Of a DNA stretch of 52,580 bases, positions 3,379 to 10,730 are shown one piece after another. Source of the stretch: Opitutales bacterium (GTDB taxonomy: Bacteria; Verrucomicrobiota; Verrucomicrobiia; Opitutales; UBA953); NCBI GenBank assembly GCA_009691685.1, contig SIAU01000005.1:1-52580 (forward strand), read 5' to 3'. The notes under the pieces were generated by a model. The model was not told the origin of the DNA and ran no database searches. It was given only the letters and a program-made list of their open reading frames with translations. Position 1 is the first letter of the stretch; each line of letters opens with the position of its first letter. The translations under genes were made by a program, and so were the position numbers.

Positions 3379-4788
3379 ATGGCTTACGCCCCTGATCATT
3401 CTTCTGAACGTCCTGCAATACTCGATAAGGTAAATCCTGCCGAGTTGCCCCGTGCTAAACTCATTCTCAATGACCGTGGCTTTCATTGGATCACCGACAA
3501 AGTTTGTGGCATCGTCGAAGAGCCCACGCCTCTCTGGTGGAAAGTTCTTTTTACGGTAGCACTTTTCGTCGCATCTTTCACGGGTGTTGGATTATTTTAC
3601 CTCGTTTCAACGGGAACAGGTGTTTGGGGTTTACGTGCCCCGATTGGTTGGGGTTGGGCGATTGTTAACTTCGTTTTCTGGGTCGGTATCGGTCACGCGG
3701 GAACTTTGATTTCTGCGATTCTCTGTTTGCTCCGCCAAAAATGGCGTACCTCGATTAATCGTGCAGCTGAGGCGATGACCATTTTCGCCGTGATGTGTGC
3801 CGGTATTTTCCCGCTCTTCCACGTCGGCCGCGTTTGGTTTGCTTGGTGGCTCTTCCCCATACCTAATCAAAATGCAATTTGGCCTCAGTTCCGTTCTCCT
3901 TTAGAGTGGGACGTTTTCGCGGTTTCGACTTACTTCACGGTTTCCTCTTTATTCTGGTACATGGGCATGGTGCCTGACTTTGGTACGATTCGCGATCGCG
4001 CAACTACATGGTGGAGAAAAGCTTTTTACAGCGTCTTGGCGATGGGCTGGCGCGGCGGCAATCGTCAGTGGTCCAACATGGAAATGGCGTATCTTTTGCT
4101 CGCTGGTTTATCCACGCCGCTCGTTCTTTCCGTGCACACCATCGTTTCGTTCGACTTCGCAGTCTCGAACGTTCCCGGCTGGCACACGACCATCTTCCCA
4201 CCTTACTTCGTGGCGGGTGCCATCTTCTCGGGCTTCGCGATGGTGTTAACGTTGATGCTGCCACTGCGTGCGATTTATCGCCTGCATGATGTAATCAATC
4301 AGTACCACATCGATAACATGTGTAAGATTATTTTAGCGACTGGTACGATGGTTGGTTACGCTTATGCCACGGAGTTCTTTATCGCTGCTTATTCTGGTAA
4401 CGTTTACGAAAAGTTTGCCTTCGTGAATCGTGCCTTCGGTCAATACGCGTGGGCTTACTGGATCATGGTTTCTTGTAACGTGATTACGCCTCAACTTTTC
4501 TGGTTTAAGAAGATTCGCGAAAATCACTCTCTCGTTTGGATTATTTGCCTATTCGTGAACGTCGGTATGTGGTTCGAACGCTTCGTCATCACTGTGACTT
4601 CGCTGGCGAATGATTACCTGCCATCGAGCTGGGGTTATTACAGCCCGACCATCGTGGATATCTTCACTTTCTTCGGCACCTTTGGTTTCTTCTCGGTGCT
4701 CTTCCTGCTCTTCGTAAGATTCTTCCCGCTTCTGCCGATGGCCGAGCTGAAGATGGTCTCACCTCACTCCGATATTCATAAACATTAA
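3379..4788 (+). CDS. actC: ActC, NrfD/PsrC-like membrane subunit of alternative complex III
   Basis: This is a polytopic quinol-interacting membrane subunit of alternative complex III (469 aa). It has about ten hydrophobic segments with the NrfD/PsrC family layout and conserved stretches such as [13 protein letters not shown] near residues 112-124 and the FPLFHVGR segment. It follows actB and precedes actD, which is the standard act order. The start ATG is 21 bases after the actB stop and has no Shine-Dalgarno sequence upstream (TTTTTAATCC precedes it). In the known complex this subunit contacts ActB and is a likely site of quinol oxidation and proton translocation; that role comes from the family and is not visible here. 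Confidence 0.95.
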
Positions 4789-4804
4789 TTTGACGTCACG
4801 AACC

Positions 4805-5347
4805 ATGAATGAACGCAATGAAAGTATCCACGGTGTCGCTTGCACCTTCCGCAAGCCAGCTGACGTCTATCACGCTGCGGAAAAAGTACGTGATGCGGGT
4901 TGGAAATATTGGGATGTGCATTCGGCTTATCCGATTCACGGCTTGGATAAAGCGATGGGCCTGCCACGTTCCAAAATACCTCGTCTGACTTTATTAGGTG
5001 GGGTGACTGGTTTCATTGCTGGTTGTTTACTCACCTGGTATATGAATTCGTTTGATTACCCTCTCATTGTTGGTGGTAAACCACTTTGGAGTCCGATCTT
5101 CCCATTCCCCATCATGTACGAGTGCACGATTCTCTTCGCGGCCTTCGGTACATTCTTTGGTCAGTTCATTTTAAATCGTCTCCCGCAACACCATCACCCT
5201 TTATTTGATCTTCCGCAATTTGCGCGCACATCGGATGACTCGTTCATGATTGTTTTGGAAGCTCGTGATTCCCAATTCCATTTAGATGAATCCCGCAACT
5301 TCTTACTCTCTTTGGGGGGTCAAGAAATCACCGTTATTCGCGACTAA
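4805..5347 (+). CDS. actD: ActD (DUF3341) membrane subunit of alternative complex III
   Basis: This is a small subunit of alternative complex III (180 aa). It carries an N-terminal soluble domain with the ActD pattern (VACTFRKPADVYHAAEKVRDAG, then YPIHGLDKAMGLPRSKIP), two membrane helices at about 58-80 and 103-123, and a short soluble C-terminal domain. I chose ATG 4805 over the in-frame TTG at 4790, because the ATG lies 16 bases after the actC stop and gives the usual N-terminus. Its position between actC and actE matches the conserved operon order. Its exact role in the complex is structural as far as is known. Confidence 0.93.
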   Translation: MNERNESIHGVACTFRKPADVYHAAEKVRDAGWKYWDVHSAYPIHGLDKAMGLPRSKIPRLTLLGGVTGFIAGCLLTWYMNSFDYPLIVGGKPLWSPIFPFPIMYECTILFAAFGTFFGQFILNRLPQHHHPLFDLPQFARTSDDSFMIVLEARDSQFHLDESRNFLLSLGGQEITVIRD

Positions 5348-5353
5348 TCCACC

Positions 5354-6070
5354 ATGAGCCGCTACCTTACATTTCTCGCTATCGTTGTTGTTGCTGTGAT
5401 TGGCTTCCTGGGTTTCCAAGGAAAGACCTCGAAGCAAACTCCGATTTATGTTTTCGACGATATGGACTATCAGCCGAAGTACAAAGCTCAGGGCGAAAAC
5501 ACTTTCTTCGCCGACGGACGCGACGCTCGCCCGCCTGTGGCTGGATCCGTTGCTCGTGGTACCGGTCTTGAACCCACCAAAGTTTTTTCCGCTGAATACC
5601 GTCGCGCTGAATCACTCAATGCCGCTTTCGTTACCGGAAAAGATGAGAAGGGCAATTTCCTCTTAGATTTCCCAGCTAAGAGTCTTACCTTTTTATCGTC
5701 GGGCGAATTACAACCCTACACGATTGACAGTAAAGTTCTGGAATTGGGTCGGGCGAAATACCAAATTTATTGTGCCGTCTGCCACGGCGATGCGGCCGAT
5801 GGTAATGGTATTATGAAAGTGCGTTCTGCCATCGAGGGCGACATCGCGATCAACACGATTGCTAATTTACAAACGGCGATCTATCGCGCTTATCCTCAGG
5901 GCCAAATTTACGACGTCATTAATAACGGCAAAAATACGATGATGCCTTACGGCGATAAACTTTCACCGGAAGAACGCTGGGCCGTCGTCGCTTACTTACG
6001 CGCTCTGCAACTTTCTCAGTTCAGCCCACCAGAAATCACCCCCGCCTCCATCAAGGCCACCGCCAAATAA
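5354..6070 (+). CDS. actE: ActE, monoheme cytochrome c subunit of alternative complex III
   Basis: This is a membrane-anchored periplasmic cytochrome c (238 aa). An N-terminal hydrophobic segment (residues 5-21) is followed by a linker and one heme-binding motif, C140-A-V-C143-H144. The probable distal Met is in NTMMPYGD near residue 197, followed by a typical C-terminal helix (EERWAVVAYLRALQ). In ACIII this subunit passes electrons towards the soluble or oxidase-bound acceptor. It starts 6 bases after the actD stop and ends 6 bases before actF, so the genes are clearly co-transcribed. Confidence 0.94.
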   Translation: MSRYLTFLAIVVVAVIGFLGFQGKTSKQTPIYVFDDMDYQPKYKAQGENTFFADGRDARPPVAGSVARGTGLEPTKVFSAEYRRAESLNAAFVTGKDEKGNFLLDFPAKSLTFLSSGELQPYTIDSKVLELGRAKYQIYCAVCHGDAADGNGIMKVRSAIEGDIAINTIANLQTAIYRAYPQGQIYDVINNGKNTMMPYGDKLSPEERWAVVAYLRALQLSQFSPPEITPASIKATAK

Positions 6071-6076
6071 TTCGCC

Positions 6077-7345
6077 ATGAGCGCTTCTCCTTCTCGTTTA
6101 TCTTCACATTGGACAACCTTCGTTGCCGTTGGCTTCGTTGCCTTGGTTGCCGTGTGGTCATTTGCCTTCCTGGGTTTAGGCGAACATGATCATCGTCCCG
6201 CACTCTCTGTTTTAGTCGGTTCCTTGTTTTGGGTTTCTACGTTAATGGGTATGCTCATGTTGATTATGATTACGCGTGTGTTCGACGCGGGCTGGGCTCC
6301 GATTATTCGTCGCTCTTGGGAGTTTATGATCAGCGCTTTACCGGTAGTGCTTTTACTGGGGGTCGCTCCTTTAGCATTCATTCCTGAGTTTCGTCACATA
6401 CTCTGGGAGTGGACGGATGCCTCGCATATTTTACCAAGCGGACACGAAGTCGGCCACGACCCCATTCTTCGGGCCAAAAGTTGGTTCCTTAACGAAAACT
6501 TTTTCCTCATCCGTATCGCTGCTTACGTGTTATTTTTCGGAGTGATTACTTGGGCTCTGCGTCACTGGTCTTTTAAACAGGACAAAGAACGCACCGCACA
6601 ACATACCCATACCTTGCACGCGGTTTCTGCCGTGGGCATTCCTGCGAGTGCCGTTATGCTGACCTTGCTCGCGTTCGACTGTTTAATGGCCCTTTCTTAT
6701 CACTGGTTCTCGACGATGTATGGTGTGTGGTTTTTCTCCCTCTCGATTCGCTTGGCCTTAGCTGCTACCGTGATTTTCACCTATCGACTATCCAACGGCG
6801 GTTGGCTCGATGGACTTCTTAATCAAGCCCACCGCCACGTACTCGGCTGTCTGATGCTCGCCTTCACTGTTTTCTGGGCGTACATCAGCTTTTCGCAGTA
6901 CTTCATTATTTATAATGCCAATATCCCCGAAGAAACTTTCTGGTATAACATGCGTGAGTTTAATCCCGTCACGGGATTGAAAAGCGATTGGTGGGGTGTA
7001 TCGATGTACCTCATTTTCGGATTCTTTTTCCTGCCCTTTCTTTTACTTTTATTTTATCGCGCAAAAATTGTTGCCCGTCGATTACTCACCATCGCCTGGA
7101 TTATTTTTGTGGGTGGTATTATGGATCTCTGGTTCAACGCCGTGCCCCGTCAAATCGTCGATAAGACTGCGCCTGAAGGTTTTACGGTATCACCCTTCAT
7201 CAGTGGCTATCTCGCCCTAGACCTGCTCGCGATTGCTGGTTTCGGCTGCTTAGTCATCGGATTATTTTTACGTGCCTCCACCCAGGCAGAAACTATCCCC
7301 GTCCACGACCCTCGTATTCTCGAGTCTATCAATTACCATGAGTGA
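6077..7345 (+). CDS. actF: ActF, second NrfD-like membrane subunit of alternative complex III
   Basis: This is the second polytopic membrane subunit of alternative complex III (422 aa), distantly related to ActC. It has about ten hydrophobic segments and conserved charged or aromatic residues between them (for example FLNENFFLIR and SQYFIIYNANIPEE). The stop overlaps the start of the next cytochrome gene in ATGAGTGA (8-base overlap), which suggests translational coupling. This ties the downstream cytochrome/CcoN-like module to the act operon. Confidence 0.94.
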   Translation: MSASPSRLSSHWTTFVAVGFVALVAVWSFAFLGLGEHDHRPALSVLVGSLFWVSTLMGMLMLIMITRVFDAGWAPIIRRSWEFMISALPVVLLLGVAPLAFIPEFRHILWEWTDASHILPSGHEVGHDPILRAKSWFLNENFFLIRIAAYVLFFGVITWALRHWSFKQDKERTAQHTHTLHAVSAVGIPASAVMLTLLAFDCLMALSYHWFSTMYGVWFFSLSIRLALAATVIFTYRLSNGGWLDGLLNQAHRHVLGCLMLAFTVFWAYISFSQYFIIYNANIPEETFWYNMREFNPVTGLKSDWWGVSMYLIFGFFFLPFLLLLFYRAKIVARRLLTIAWIIFVGGIMDLWFNAVPRQIVDKTAPEGFTVSPFISGYLALDLLAIAGFGCLVIGLFLRASTQAETIPVHDPRILESINYHE

Positions 7346-8096
7346 TAATTCTTCTAATGGAGATCGCCCTTTAATTCCTGGCCAAGTTGCTTCTTGGTTA
7401 GGAATTTTAGCCTTCGTTTTCGTCGCCATCTTTGTCATCGCCTACGCGTATGTTGCCTTCAGTCCCAAAACCAATTCTGACGTCGAGCGCCGCATCGCCG
7501 AAAAAGCACTACGTGCTGATATTGAATCAAAAGCGAAGGGATTAATTTCTGCTACCGGTTTAAACGCCGACGGAACTTATCGTGTGCCGGTCGAAACAGC
7601 GATGTCGCTCATGGCGGCTGATCCTGACTTAGTAAATAAAATGCGCAATTACTCTGCGCCTGGTCCATCGGCACCTCAGCCCGTTTCACTAAATGCCGAC
7701 GCACCCAAAGTGGCCGATGAAGAAGTAATGAAGCGCGGATTAGCAGTCTACTCACGCACTTGTGTGGCCTGTCACCAGCCTACGGGTAAGGGGCTGCCTC
7801 CAGTTTTTCCTCCTTTAGCTGAGGCGCCGATTGTGAACGGTGATCCGACACTATCTATTAAGTTCATTCTTCATGGATTGATCGGACCAGTCACTGTTGC
7901 TGGCACAACTTACAACAGTATGATGCCTGCAGTCGCAGGGCTGAACGACCAAGATATTTCTGATGTTACCACTTACGTGCGTGCTAGTTTTGGCAACAAT
8001 TCAGGCCCGGTGACCGTTGAACAAGTCAAAGCCGTGCGCGATGCCAATGCTTCACGCAACACACCTTGGACCACCGCCGAATTAGGTCTTAAATAA
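7338..8096 (+). CDS. membrane-anchored monoheme cytochrome c (first of two paralogues flanking the CcoN/CcoO pair)
   Basis: This 252-aa protein has one N-terminal membrane helix (about 18-41), a charged helical linker (46-110) and a C-terminal class I cytochrome c domain with C142-V-A-C145-H146. The likely distal Met is in NSMMPAVAGL. The start ATG at 7338 overlaps the actF stop; an upstream in-frame start at 7272 would lie deep inside actF and is rejected. The heme domain resembles that encoded at 10053-10730 (shared HQ-TG-G-FPP, GL-G--V-G and YVR---GN--GPV pattern), so the two look like paralogues. Its position suggests an electron carrier between ACIII and the following CcoN/CcoO-like proteins; this is inference. 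Confidence 0.9.
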   Translation: MSDNSSNGDRPLIPGQVASWLGILAFVFVAIFVIAYAYVAFSPKTNSDVERRIAEKALRADIESKAKGLISATGLNADGTYRVPVETAMSLMAADPDLVNKMRNYSAPGPSAPQPVSLNADAPKVADEEVMKRGLAVYSRTCVACHQPTGKGLPPVFPPLAEAPIVNGDPTLSIKFILHGLIGPVTVAGTTYNSMMPAVAGLNDQDISDVTTYVRASFGNNSGPVTVEQVKAVRDANASRNTPWTTAELGLK

Positions 8097-8110: not shown

Positions 8111-9484
8111 ATGAGCCAGGACTATTACCGCCAAGCACATTCTTCCCCAAGCGATAAAGGAAGCACCCTCCCTGTTCGTTTATTTTTTGCCTCTGCTTTG
8201 GGTTGGTTAATTATTTCATCCGTTCTCGGACTCATCGTAAGTTTAAAATTACAAACCCCTACTTTCATGGCAGGTTGTGAGTGGTTCACTTATGGTCGTT
8301 TAGAAATCCTTCAGCGAAATGCCTTTACCTATGGTTGGATTGCGAATGCGATTTTCGGAGTGAACTTATGGATCATGTCAGCACTAGCTCGCTTTGAATT
8401 TAAAGATAGCTGGTTGGCAGTGTGTGGTTGGTTGGGCTGGAATCTCGCTCTGACTTTTGGACTCGGGGCCATTTTCCTCGGTCATCTCAATGGCTACGTA
8501 CTTTTAGAAATGCCCAAGGAAGTGGCTCCAGCTTTATTTATCAGTTTCCTCTTTGCTGCGCTGTGGCCCTCCGTTGCCTTTGTTCGTCGTCCGACCGGAC
8601 ACGTCTTCGTATCACAGTGGTACATCATTGGTGCTTCTTTCGTCTTCCCCGTAGCCTTTGGTATCACGCAACTGTTAGTTCTTTGGTATCCGACATCCGG
8701 AGTGCTTCAGGCGCTCATCCATAGTTGGTTCATCCAAAATATCCAATTACTCTGGATTGGGGCTTCGGCGATTGCTGCGACTTATTATTTCATCTCCAAG
8801 GAGTCGGGTCGCACGATCTCGGCTTACTATTTGGCCACTGTCGGATTCTGGACCTACTTTCTTTTTGCGGGTTGGACGGCTCCTGCTTCATTACTCGGCG
8901 GTCCCATTCCTGTTTGGATTCAATCCGTCGGCGTGACTACTGCACTCATGATGTTAGTTCCGGTAATTATCCTGGGGATTAATTTCTTTGGGACACTTTC
9001 TTACAGTCGCGGATTTGCTTACGCTTGGAATAACACGACCCTCCGCTTCGTCTTAGTCGGCATGGTCAGCTTCGTGGTTTCTTCCGCATTAAATATTCTT
9101 TTCTCCACCCGCTCGCTGAATGCGGTTGTTCGTTTCACCGATTTCACCGTCGGACAGCAGCAGCTCGTCAATTACGGTTTCGTATCGATGGTCTTCTTTG
9201 GCGCCGCTTATTATATTCTGCCACGCGTCACGGGTTCATTCTGGCCGTCGGCAAAACTAGTTCACCTCCACTTCTGGTCCTGTGTTATCGGAGGTCTCGG
9301 ATTGGCTCTCCATCTTTTAATCTGTGGTTACCCCACGGTTAATAGCGGAGTCATTAGCTATTATTACATCCCCGTTATCTTCTTCGTGCTTTTACAATTG
9401 GTGGGACACCTCGCCTTCGCGATTAATTCACTCGTCATGCTCTTCGCTTCTGCGCGAAATACAAACGACAACCCTCACGCTTAA
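8111..9484 (+). CDS. CcoN-like (cbb3 oxidase subunit I fold) protein lacking all heme and copper ligands
   Basis: This 457-aa protein has about twelve membrane helices. It aligns along its length with cbb3-type oxidase subunit I: YGRLEILQRNAF matches the FGRLRPLHTNAV region, WFIQNIQLLW matches WYGHNAVGF, PASLL...PVWIQS matches PHHLH...PDWAQS, and FTVGQQQLVNYGF matches WTIGHSHVGALGW. Every catalytic ligand differs: Q68 replaces the low-spin heme b His, Q209 and A259/S260 replace the three CuB His, and Q349/Q351 replace the heme b3 and heme b His of helix X. The cross-linked Tyr position appears to be Ala253. The frame is intact with no stops, so this is a maintained gene rather than decay. It cannot bind heme and copper in the usual way and should not be called an oxidase. 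It may be a structural or quinone/ion-handling partner of ACIII (inference). Confidence 0.85.
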   Translation: MSQDYYRQAHSSPSDKGSTLPVRLFFASALGWLIISSVLGLIVSLKLQTPTFMAGCEWFTYGRLEILQRNAFTYGWIANAIFGVNLWIMSALARFEFKDSWLAVCGWLGWNLALTFGLGAIFLGHLNGYVLLEMPKEVAPALFISFLFAALWPSVAFVRRPTGHVFVSQWYIIGASFVFPVAFGITQLLVLWYPTSGVLQALIHSWFIQNIQLLWIGASAIAATYYFISKESGRTISAYYLATVGFWTYFLFAGWTAPASLLGGPIPVWIQSVGVTTALMMLVPVIILGINFFGTLSYSRGFAYAWNNTTLRFVLVGMVSFVVSSALNILFSTRSLNAVVRFTDFTVGQQQLVNYGFVSMVFFGAAYYILPRVTGSFWPSAKLVHLHFWSCVIGGLGLALHLLICGYPTVNSGVISYYYIPVIFFVLLQLVGHLAFAINSLVMLFASARNTNDNPHA

Positions 9485-9496
9485 ATTGCCCTGATC

Positions 9497-10048
9497 ATGA
9501 AGGACTTTAATCTCATTCTCTCCGGTATTTTCTTCACCTTAGCAGCTTCCTTCGGTGGTTTGCTGATTAGCAGTGAAGTCCAATTAGGATCCTTGGGCCG
9601 TGCACCCGCTGAAGAGGGTGGCCCGCTTTATCCTGCAATTGAAACAGGTTTAGCGATTCAAGGTCGCCAAGTTTATCTCGAATTAGGCTGCGTCACCTGC
9701 CACACGCAACAGGTACGTCCGGCCGGACAAGGAAACGATATTGCGAAGGGCTATGGTCCTCGCCCGACTGTCGCCCGCGACTACGTTCTCCAGACTGAAT
9801 TACTCTTAGGTAACCATCGTAACGGGCCCGACCTCGCGAACTACGGTGCTCGTGCTAAGTCCGATGACGAAATTCATGGCCACCTTCGCTCGCCCGCCGC
9901 AGGTAGCACGATGCCTGCCTACAATTTCTTATACACGGTCGACAAAAATGGTGTCACTCAACCCACCGAGCGCGCTCAAGCCTTGGTCGCGTACCTAAAA
10001 TCTCTCCGCATCGACTACAATTCGCCTGAAGCGAAATTGAAACAGTAA
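9497..10048 (+). CDS. CcoO-like membrane-anchored monoheme cytochrome c
   Basis: This 183-aa protein has one N-terminal membrane helix (about 6-25) and a cytochrome c domain of the CcoO type. It has GRQVYLELGC65VTC68H69 followed by QQVRP, GNHRNGPDLANYGAR, and the distal Met in STM139PAYNF. This pattern is characteristic of cbb3 oxidase subunit II, and the length is close to the usual 200 or so. Unlike its partner CcoN-like protein, it keeps its heme ligands. It starts 12 bases after the CcoN-like stop, and the next gene starts 4 bases after its own stop, so the module is tightly co-transcribed. Confidence 0.88.
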   Translation: MKDFNLILSGIFFTLAASFGGLLISSEVQLGSLGRAPAEEGGPLYPAIETGLAIQGRQVYLELGCVTCHTQQVRPAGQGNDIAKGYGPRPTVARDYVLQTELLLGNHRNGPDLANYGARAKSDDEIHGHLRSPAAGSTMPAYNFLYTVDKNGVTQPTERAQALVAYLKSLRIDYNSPEAKLKQ

Positions 10049-10052
10049 TCCC

Positions 10053-10730
10053 ATGTCACAACATTCTCAAAATAACGATAAGCCCAACCGCTCCTTTGGT
10101 GAGCAGGGTAATCTTTCCGATAGTCGCCTCGTCGAGATTCACTCGCACCTCGCCCGCGACAAAGAGGAACCTGCTGAGGGTTTTTCCATGCTGCCTATCG
10201 TGATTGTATTTATCTTTTGTGGATTTGGTTTCTGGGCCGGTGTTTATCTGACCCGTAATTCGGGTGAATTTTCAGCGAGCACATTCGATCTCGATGCACC
10301 TAAATTAGTCGCCAACATGGGTCCTATGGTTTTTGAGCCTGATCTCGTTAAGGGTGAAAAACTTTATATTCAAAACTGTGCCGCTTGTCACCAAGCCACC
10401 GGCTTAGGCGTCGCTGGTGCCTTTCCACCCATCGCTGGATCGGCTTGGCCAGTCGGCAACGAAGAGCGCGTTATCAAAATCGTCCTCGCGGGGTTAGCGG
10501 GAGAAATTGAAGTGAATGGCCAAAAGTATGTCGGCAATATGTCCAACATCGGCGCGGGTCTGAAAGACGCTCAAGTTGCCAATATCATCTCTTACGTTCG
10601 TTCAGCTTGGGGTAACCAAGGCGGACCAGTCATGGATACTAAGGTGGCTGAAGTGCGTAAAGCTATCGGCGCCCGTGGTCAGTACAGCGGTAAAGAAATT
10701 CTCGATCAGCACCCGTTAGAATCTAAATAA
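10053..10730 (+). CDS. membrane-anchored monoheme cytochrome c in CcoP position
   Basis: This 225-aa protein occupies the CcoP position but has one heme, not two. It has a hydrophilic N-terminus (1-44), one membrane helix (about 46-66), and a C-terminal cytochrome c domain with C109-A-A-C112-H113 and a probable distal Met in VGNMSNIG. The heme domain is paralogous to that of the gene at 7338-8096. The shape resembles CcoP (cytosolic N-terminus, one anchor, periplasmic heme) with a single heme domain. It is the last gene of the operon; a strong hairpin terminator follows within 55 bases. Confidence 0.87.
   Translation: MSQHSQNNDKPNRSFGEQGNLSDSRLVEIHSHLARDKEEPAEGFSMLPIVIVFIFCGFGFWAGVYLTRNSGEFSASTFDLDAPKLVANMGPMVFEPDLVKGEKLYIQNCAACHQATGLGVAGAFPPIAGSAWPVGNEERVIKIVLAGLAGEIEVNGQKYVGNMSNIGAGLKDAQVANIISYVRSAWGNQGGPVMDTKVAEVRKAIGARGQYSGKEILDQHPLESK

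Follow-up and report, generated by a model that had tools for sequence, protein, structure and literature searches.

A CcoN-like protein lacking all heme and copper ligands, encoded in the alternative complex III operon of an Opitutales bacterium, is probably kept as a cofactor-free structural subunit

What an oxidase subunit may be kept for once every residue that would bind its cofactors has gone is the question raised by a locus of an Opitutales bacterium (GenBank assembly GCA_009691685.1, contig SIAU01000005.1), of which 52,580 nucleotides, hereafter the window, were analyzed. The window carries an operon for alternative complex III (ACIII), in which one frame, here called N, resembles CcoN, the subunit I of cbb3-type oxidases (Table 1). 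From sequence comparisons across the phylum, we consider it likely that N is a pseudo-oxidase, namely a cbb3-type subunit I without heme b, heme b3 and CuB sites that would serve as a fixed, cofactor-free subunit of ACIII; its membership in the complex, the absence of bound heme and the path of the electrons are what we infer from these data.

Table 1. Features of the ACIII operon in the window, with positions counted from the first nucleotide of the window.
Feature	Position	Strand	Evidence
ActB, Fe-S subunit of ACIII, 5' end cut by contig edge	1..3357	+	Fer4_7 4.4e-13; synteny
ActC, NrfD-like membrane subunit	3379..4788	+	PF03916 7.7e-23
ActD	4790..5347	+	PF11821 1.4e-59
ActE, monoheme cytochrome c (CAVCH)	5354..6070	+	PF13442 1.1e-14; motif
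ActF	6077..7345	+	named by place and homologs
cyc1, membrane-anchored monoheme cytochrome c (CVACH)	7272..8096	+	PF00034 3.4e-11
Pseudo-CcoN (N), CcoN fold without heme and copper ligands	8111..9484	+	PF00115, cbb3 PDB matches, alignment, model
CcoO-like monoheme cytochrome (CVTCH), Met in axial column	9497..10048	+	PF02433 FixO 5.1e-17
cyc2, CcoP-like membrane-anchored monoheme cytochrome (CAACH)	10053..10730	+	PF00034 1.4e-14

The gene order is actB, actC, actD, actE, actF, cyc1, N, the CcoO-like gene and cyc2, hence the operon unites the Fe-S protein, the NrfD-like protein, ActD and the ActE cytochrome that characterize ACIII with the CcoO-like monoheme partner of cbb3 oxidases, which lies beside N. 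The location of N inside an ACIII operon, claimed in an initial annotation made from the letters of the window, is thus confirmed by domain matches and synteny. A TTG start of actB is listed at position 106, yet the frame is open to base 1, and ActA would have its place past the contig edge; all six relatives looked at have an upstream frame with five CxxCH motifs. ActF had no family match in the domain search, and cyc1 more likely starts with the in-frame ATG at 7338. Loci of other genomes that extend far enough show the same ActF-N-O order; several of the compared loci stop before ActB, and no cyc2 match was found in two of them (L085 and L103). The operon seems to be split in the genus of two further loci (L068 of genome G187 and L121 of G190), where only ActE and ActF precede N, O and cyc2 and ActD is found on another contig. 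Locus L144 has no separate ActD, and ActC and ActD look fused in methanotroph-like genomes (L144:10993-13029, 679 aa; L178:8787-10958, 724 aa). Three cyc1 homologs (L035:2519-2962, L036:9545-9988 and L037:2-427) keep their place in the operon, end before the cytochrome domain and carry no CxxCH motif.

N is an intact frame with an ATG start that encodes 457 amino acids and matches PF00115 (COX1 family) at 2.7e-33, as befits the subunit I fold of heme-copper oxidases. The cbb3 CcoN chains of the PDB match it at 1.3e-27 (phmmer) and 6.6e-36 (profile), and the seven best PDB matches of its AlphaFold2 model, which is of middling quality (pLDDT 69, pTM 0.79), are all cbb3 CcoN chains (Foldseek; TM 0.76-0.82 against 8smr_E and the 3mk7 chains). 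On TIGR00780, the curated ccoN model, N scores 105 bits, below the cut-off of 583, and an intact relative in locus L167 likewise stays below it with 254 bits. Alignment to the PDB chains places Q68, Q209, A259, S260, Q349 and Q351 in the six His ligand columns of cbb3 oxidases, so that none of the six ligands of heme b, heme b3 and CuB is kept, and A253 stands in the helix VII column of the cross-linked Tyr; the columns come from the alignments, while the ligand identities are those that we take to hold for CcoN of P. stutzeri. The initial annotation had described an intact CcoN-like frame of this length that keeps the fold and has lost the ligands, and it was right in each replaced residue: no His was found at any ligand column.

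The residue set of N, QQAASQQ in the order of the protein, is also present in the two named relatives that are closest to it (97 and 93% identity), and relatives that are 53-97% identical carry the same set. A recent strain-level variant is thereby rejected; homologs with normal ligands do exist in sister genomes, yet N is no recent pseudogene-like derivative of them. Compared with the two closest relatives, the dN/dS of N is 0.061 and 0.065, which in the nearer pair is like that of the cytochrome neighbors and above that of ActC to ActE, and N is under strong purifying constraint. Misalignment or a pseudogene is disfavored by the motif alignment and by dN/dS. That N is a decaying relic without function would agree with the loss of its catalytic residues and with a protein that changes faster than ActC to ActF, but the frames that were read are open over their full length, a dN/dS near 0.06 was measured and N has been retained after many ligand losses, which makes decay highly improbable.

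How far the loss extends was assessed in an alignment of 117 proteins, consisting of 107 ACIII-linked members and 10 references, the latter being C-type and other full-ligand proteins, mostly on short stretches in which ACIII genes were not sought. Excluded before the count were L052 and L054, which are cut by contig ends, and 34 refetched loci (L001, L004-L032, L056, L058, L059 and L062). The full set HHYHHHH is present in all 10 references and in 28 of the 107 ACIII-linked members, while the other 79 keep at most three of the seven residues (none in 31, one in 42, two in 5 and three in 1). The Tyr is lost in 79/79 and both heme b His survive in only two. Some of the ligand-less members may still hold heme, since 42 keep one residue and 6 keep two or three. 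As the window protein was the query that retrieved 20 of the 79, this sample is biased; the evenly drawn genomes of the window's class, together with the window's own, comprise 60 ligand-less and 28 intact cases (88 of 94 matching genomes; G078, G169, G199, G277, G307 and G372 stand outside this count and G072 is within the 60). The loss is concentrated in the cofactor sites: among 142 columns that are at least 95% conserved in the 28 intact relatives, the retained fraction is 0.054 in the seven ligand columns vs. 0.593 in the others for eight rows of the window's clade (permutation p 4e-4); across the 79 ligand-less rows together, the values are 0.099 and 0.600 (p 1e-5, the lowest value that the test can return).

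According to the initial annotation, a distinct clade marked by the Gln set and always adjoining ACIII and a CcoO-like gene would support its reading. The neighborhood with ACIII and the CcoO-like gene is constant, but the Gln set is no hallmark of the family: it marks the clade of the window and some others, and the residues vary by lineage (QQAASQQ in the window's group, QQGRHQQ, AHSSRRW, HSAQKFI, FEAADVQ, SESSHFV and others). Since other lineages carry other residue sets, and since all ligands are present in some identically ordered operons, the pattern suggests an ACIII-linked cbb3 oxidase that lost its cofactor sites repeatedly, and not one clade with a new Gln site.

Another reading, in line with the quinone-binding or ion-translocating role offered in the initial annotation, is that N has a chemistry or transport of its own, binding quinone or heme by other residues or moving ions. 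In favor of this, K230, E133, H387, Y225/Y226 and W247 are conserved in many ligand-less members, and H204 and H433 are invariant in the window's clade. Except for H204, however, these residues are equally conserved in the intact relatives and hence predate the loss of the ligands, while the column of H204 is Asn in 28/28 intact members and variable in other ligand-less groups. Of 31 columns that are at least 90% conserved in the 79 ligand-less rows, all but that of Y74 (97% in ligand-less vs. 64% in intact rows) are also at least 89% conserved in the intact ones, thus no clear new shared site emerges. Together with the absence of CcoS described below, which argues against cofactor insertion, this renders a chemistry of its own distinctly unlikely.

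The number of losses was estimated on a tree of ActB, ActC and ActF from 92 loci, where the ligand state needs nine changes, eight of which are forced by starred branches and constitute the count relied on; under midpoint rooting, 11 ligand-less groups result. A single ligand-less clade is rejected on this tree (p 2e-45, LG+G4; 68 of the 92 rows, with 24 near copies and long branches dropped). Loss is taken as the derived state because the outgroup in the tree of N is intact. That tree, which contains long branches, needs only three changes and unites 76/79 ligand-less rows in one clade with an SH-aLRT of 98, as would be expected if an ancient ligand-less paralog had arisen once and recombination had then put it in the place of the intact gene in several operons. 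When the groups were placed singly, 8/15 remained basal or unsupported, which would also suit a paralog, but 7/15 (L090, L119, L077, HNSQ, the methanotrophs, AHSSRRW and the window's clade; support 100 down to 40) fell beside their operon kin. As the operon tree rejects one clade and the residue sets differ between groups, replacement by a single old paralog appears rather unlikely, and repeated loss is the better reading of the sequences.

The absence of the cofactor sites goes along with the absence of the maturation peptide CcoS (FixS). According to the available part of PMC8267372 (citing Koch 2000 and Kulajta 2006), CcoS of R. capsulatus was reported to be needed for heme b, heme b3 and CuB in CcoN, and the CcoNOQP complex still forms without it, therefore an empty CcoN can be assembled. 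In 24 genomes picked by match counts to have no other C-type oxidase, the Pfam FixS family was found in 6/9 intact and 0/15 ligand-less genomes, each time just upstream of N (one of the six hits is below the cut-off, and one further sub-cut-off match lies elsewhere in G085); the genome of the window, which is 88% complete, gave no match. A model built from the six peptides and run over whole loci detected a same-strand CcoS in the actF-N interval of 27/27 intact loci, or of 21/21 without the six seeds, and in none of 77 ligand-less loci including the window's L003, not even at an E-value of 10; L034, L037 and L125, which are without actF, were excluded from this count. For five of the CcoS peptides examined with Pfam, FixS was above the cut-off in three and weak in two. 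On the operon tree, CcoS and ligand state change together in eight independent pairs, all in the same direction. That lineages without the cofactor sites are also without the gene for filling them fits the reports on CcoS. The maturation protein CcoG (TIGR02745) was matched in 0/24 genomes, which is uninformative because the intact genomes also have no match.

In this sample, ligand-less N occurs only where another oxidase-family protein exists. Besides N, the genome of the window contains a single PF00115 protein, which by score is an A-type COX1 and has an adjoining CxxCH-containing frame that is taken for COX2 by its place; no bd oxidase was found in this genome (88% complete), and two genomes of the same genus (99% complete) agree with it. 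Another PF00115 protein was present in 60/60 ligand-less genomes searched, in 59 of which the best other match is 3.1e-125 or better and is taken for A-type, the remaining one (G384) having fragments that match the COX1 of the window's genome. A-type COX1 had no match in 4/28 intact vs. 0/60 ligand-less genomes (Fisher p 0.009), while an intact N as the sole oxidase (2/28 vs. 0/60) is not significantly different (p 0.099). The two genomes concerned, G001 (L167) and G146 (L168), of 1.3-1.7 Mb, have the intact N as their only PF00115 match and no bd oxidase, for which reason it is probably a working oxidase there, perhaps in a minimal aerobic chain. Within 7 kb downstream, a same-strand aa3-type coxA is present in 22/68 evaluable ligand-less loci, which are clustered in a few families, vs. 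1/26 evaluable intact loci. L073 (G257), where one stretch holds both an aa3-type coxA and an intact N that retains every ligand, perhaps represents a stage before ligand loss.

The coupling of N to ACIII was examined in 387 genomes drawn from the phylum, of which 124 matched N, more weakly outside the class of the window (best E 7e-35). Within this class, 94 genomes match N, 94 have a strong ActD (2.1e-41 or better) and 92 are in both sets. Of the two with ActD only, G369 has a contig that ends inside ActE, the position of N lying beyond, and G008 (locus L175) carries actBCDEF without any CcoN-like gene, the sole clear exception in the sample; the two with N only are G313, in which N is at a contig end, and G078, in which the match is weak (1.7e-7). 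Thirteen genomes of one genus (g37 of family f10) lack N and have a weak ActD; beside the second ACIII copies in loci L178 and L180, too, N was not found. ACIII can thus do without N, as G008 and these second copies indicate. An alternative role for N would be that of an assembly or stability factor for the CcoO- and CcoP-like cytochromes or for the aa3 oxidase, and not of a permanent ACIII subunit. This role is compatible with the same sequence data, aa3 genes follow in part of the loci, and a structural role of this sort has been proposed for a ligand-less COX1-like protein of Acetobacter (available part of PMC10715153). Against it, the coupling is to ACIII (92/94 genomes), and in 46/68 evaluable ligand-less loci the 7 kb downstream yielded no aa3 gene, hence we regard an assembly factor as quite unlikely.

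The data suggest instead that N is a dead enzyme reused as a structural part of ACIII, and of the roles offered in the initial annotation, that of a structural partner is the best reading of the sequence facts. N would descend from an ACIII-linked cbb3 oxidase, of which sister lineages still have the complete form. Its CcoN fold would dock on ACIII and hold the CcoO-like and CcoP-like monoheme cytochromes in place; electrons from menaquinol would exit ACIII via the hemes of ActA and ActE and run along these cytochromes, the relay thus being provided by the c-type neighbors and not by N, to end at a separate aa3/caa3-type oxidase instead of entering CcoN. We lean, by a modest degree, toward the wider proposal of an ACIII subtype in which a cbb3 oxidase joined the complex, at least 8-11 lineages stripped it of its cofactor sites and CcoS, and the remaining body became a scaffold that routes electrons to aa3.

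Several known systems share part of these features. N resembles CcoN of cbb3 oxidases in fold, length, PF00115 membership, its companion CcoO-like gene and its best PDB matches, but differs in being without the ligand His, the cross-link Tyr and an operon CcoS, and in its TIGR00780 score. A deranged COX1-like protein of Acetobacter, for which the available part of PMC10715153 proposes a structural role, is a precedent, as it has been retained without any of the conserved cofactor-binding residues; in contrast to N, it is linked to CtaB, and that part mentions no link to ACIII, repeated loss or CcoS. ACIII of Flavobacterium johnsoniae and R. marinus was isolated with an aa3/caa3 oxidase and passes electrons via c hemes, but the accessible text of PMC8552683 names no CcoN-like subunit. 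The putative NO dismutase is likewise a superfamily member with an altered ligand set, although the portion of PMC3413370 at hand describes one His replaced by Asn and cofactors thought to be kept, whereas all ligands of N are gone. ACIII and cbb3-like genes are found together, as here, in the ACIII-linked C-type oxidase operon of Opitutaceae and verrucomicrobial methanotrophs, which the available part of PMC8498564 (citing Refojo et al., 2010) describes as a cbb3 oxidase, while 79/107 members are ligand-less in our set. Among the literature listings and passages covered, with Refojo et al. (2010) represented by its citation, none described a ligand-less CcoN from an ACIII operon.

Published statements on verrucomicrobial methanotrophs are affected by these observations. 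The sections available to us describe a cbb3 oxidase next to ACIII (PMC8498564 and PMC6688271), link it to high O2 affinity (PMC6688271) and count cbb3 among the oxidases of these organisms (PMC10205796). The five genomes of family f11 are taken for verrucomicrobial methanotrophs, as pmoA-family genes are present in 5/5, and their ACIII-linked N has the residues SESSHFV in four and ADAAHQT in one. Aa3-type genes follow N in the four f11 loci measured (by Pfam for one), and among the PF00115 matches listed for the f11 genomes none is in the score range of canonical C-type frames. A true cbb3 oxidase elsewhere in methanotroph-like genomes was not among eight further PF00115 frames read in G152, G042 and G265, which are A-type, B-type or NOR-like by motif, one being confirmed as NorB (4.6e-89); the motifs assigned to the B-type are those that we presume to define it, and for G054 and G072 the oxidase type comes from scores alone. 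NCBIfam gave no match for L157 and L160 and weak oxidase matches below the cut-off for L158 and L162. From these sequences, the published cbb3 oxidase beside ACIII appears to be of the ligand-less kind; if so, O2 would not be reduced by the enzyme that was once invoked to explain high O2 affinity, and the cbb3 statements in the parts seen of PMC6688271, PMC8498564, PMC10205796 and PMC8170126 need checking. With 60/88 class genomes ligand-less and 28/88 intact, a CcoN match beside ACIII is often no oxidase in this class, which calls for a correction of such annotations. The family also seems to offer a natural experiment, repeated many times, in which a catalytic respiratory subunit turns into a scaffold, with the loss of the maturation factor as an internal control, and it brings the architecture of ACIII supercomplexes within reach of tests in another phylum.

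The CcoO-like cytochrome keeps its CxxCH motif in 79/79 ligand-less loci but has changed too, since its axial Met is present in 28/28 intact loci and in only 52/79 ligand-less ones. In the latter, the axial column holds Cys in 13/79, His in 3 and Arg in 3, substitutions that may change the potential of the heme.
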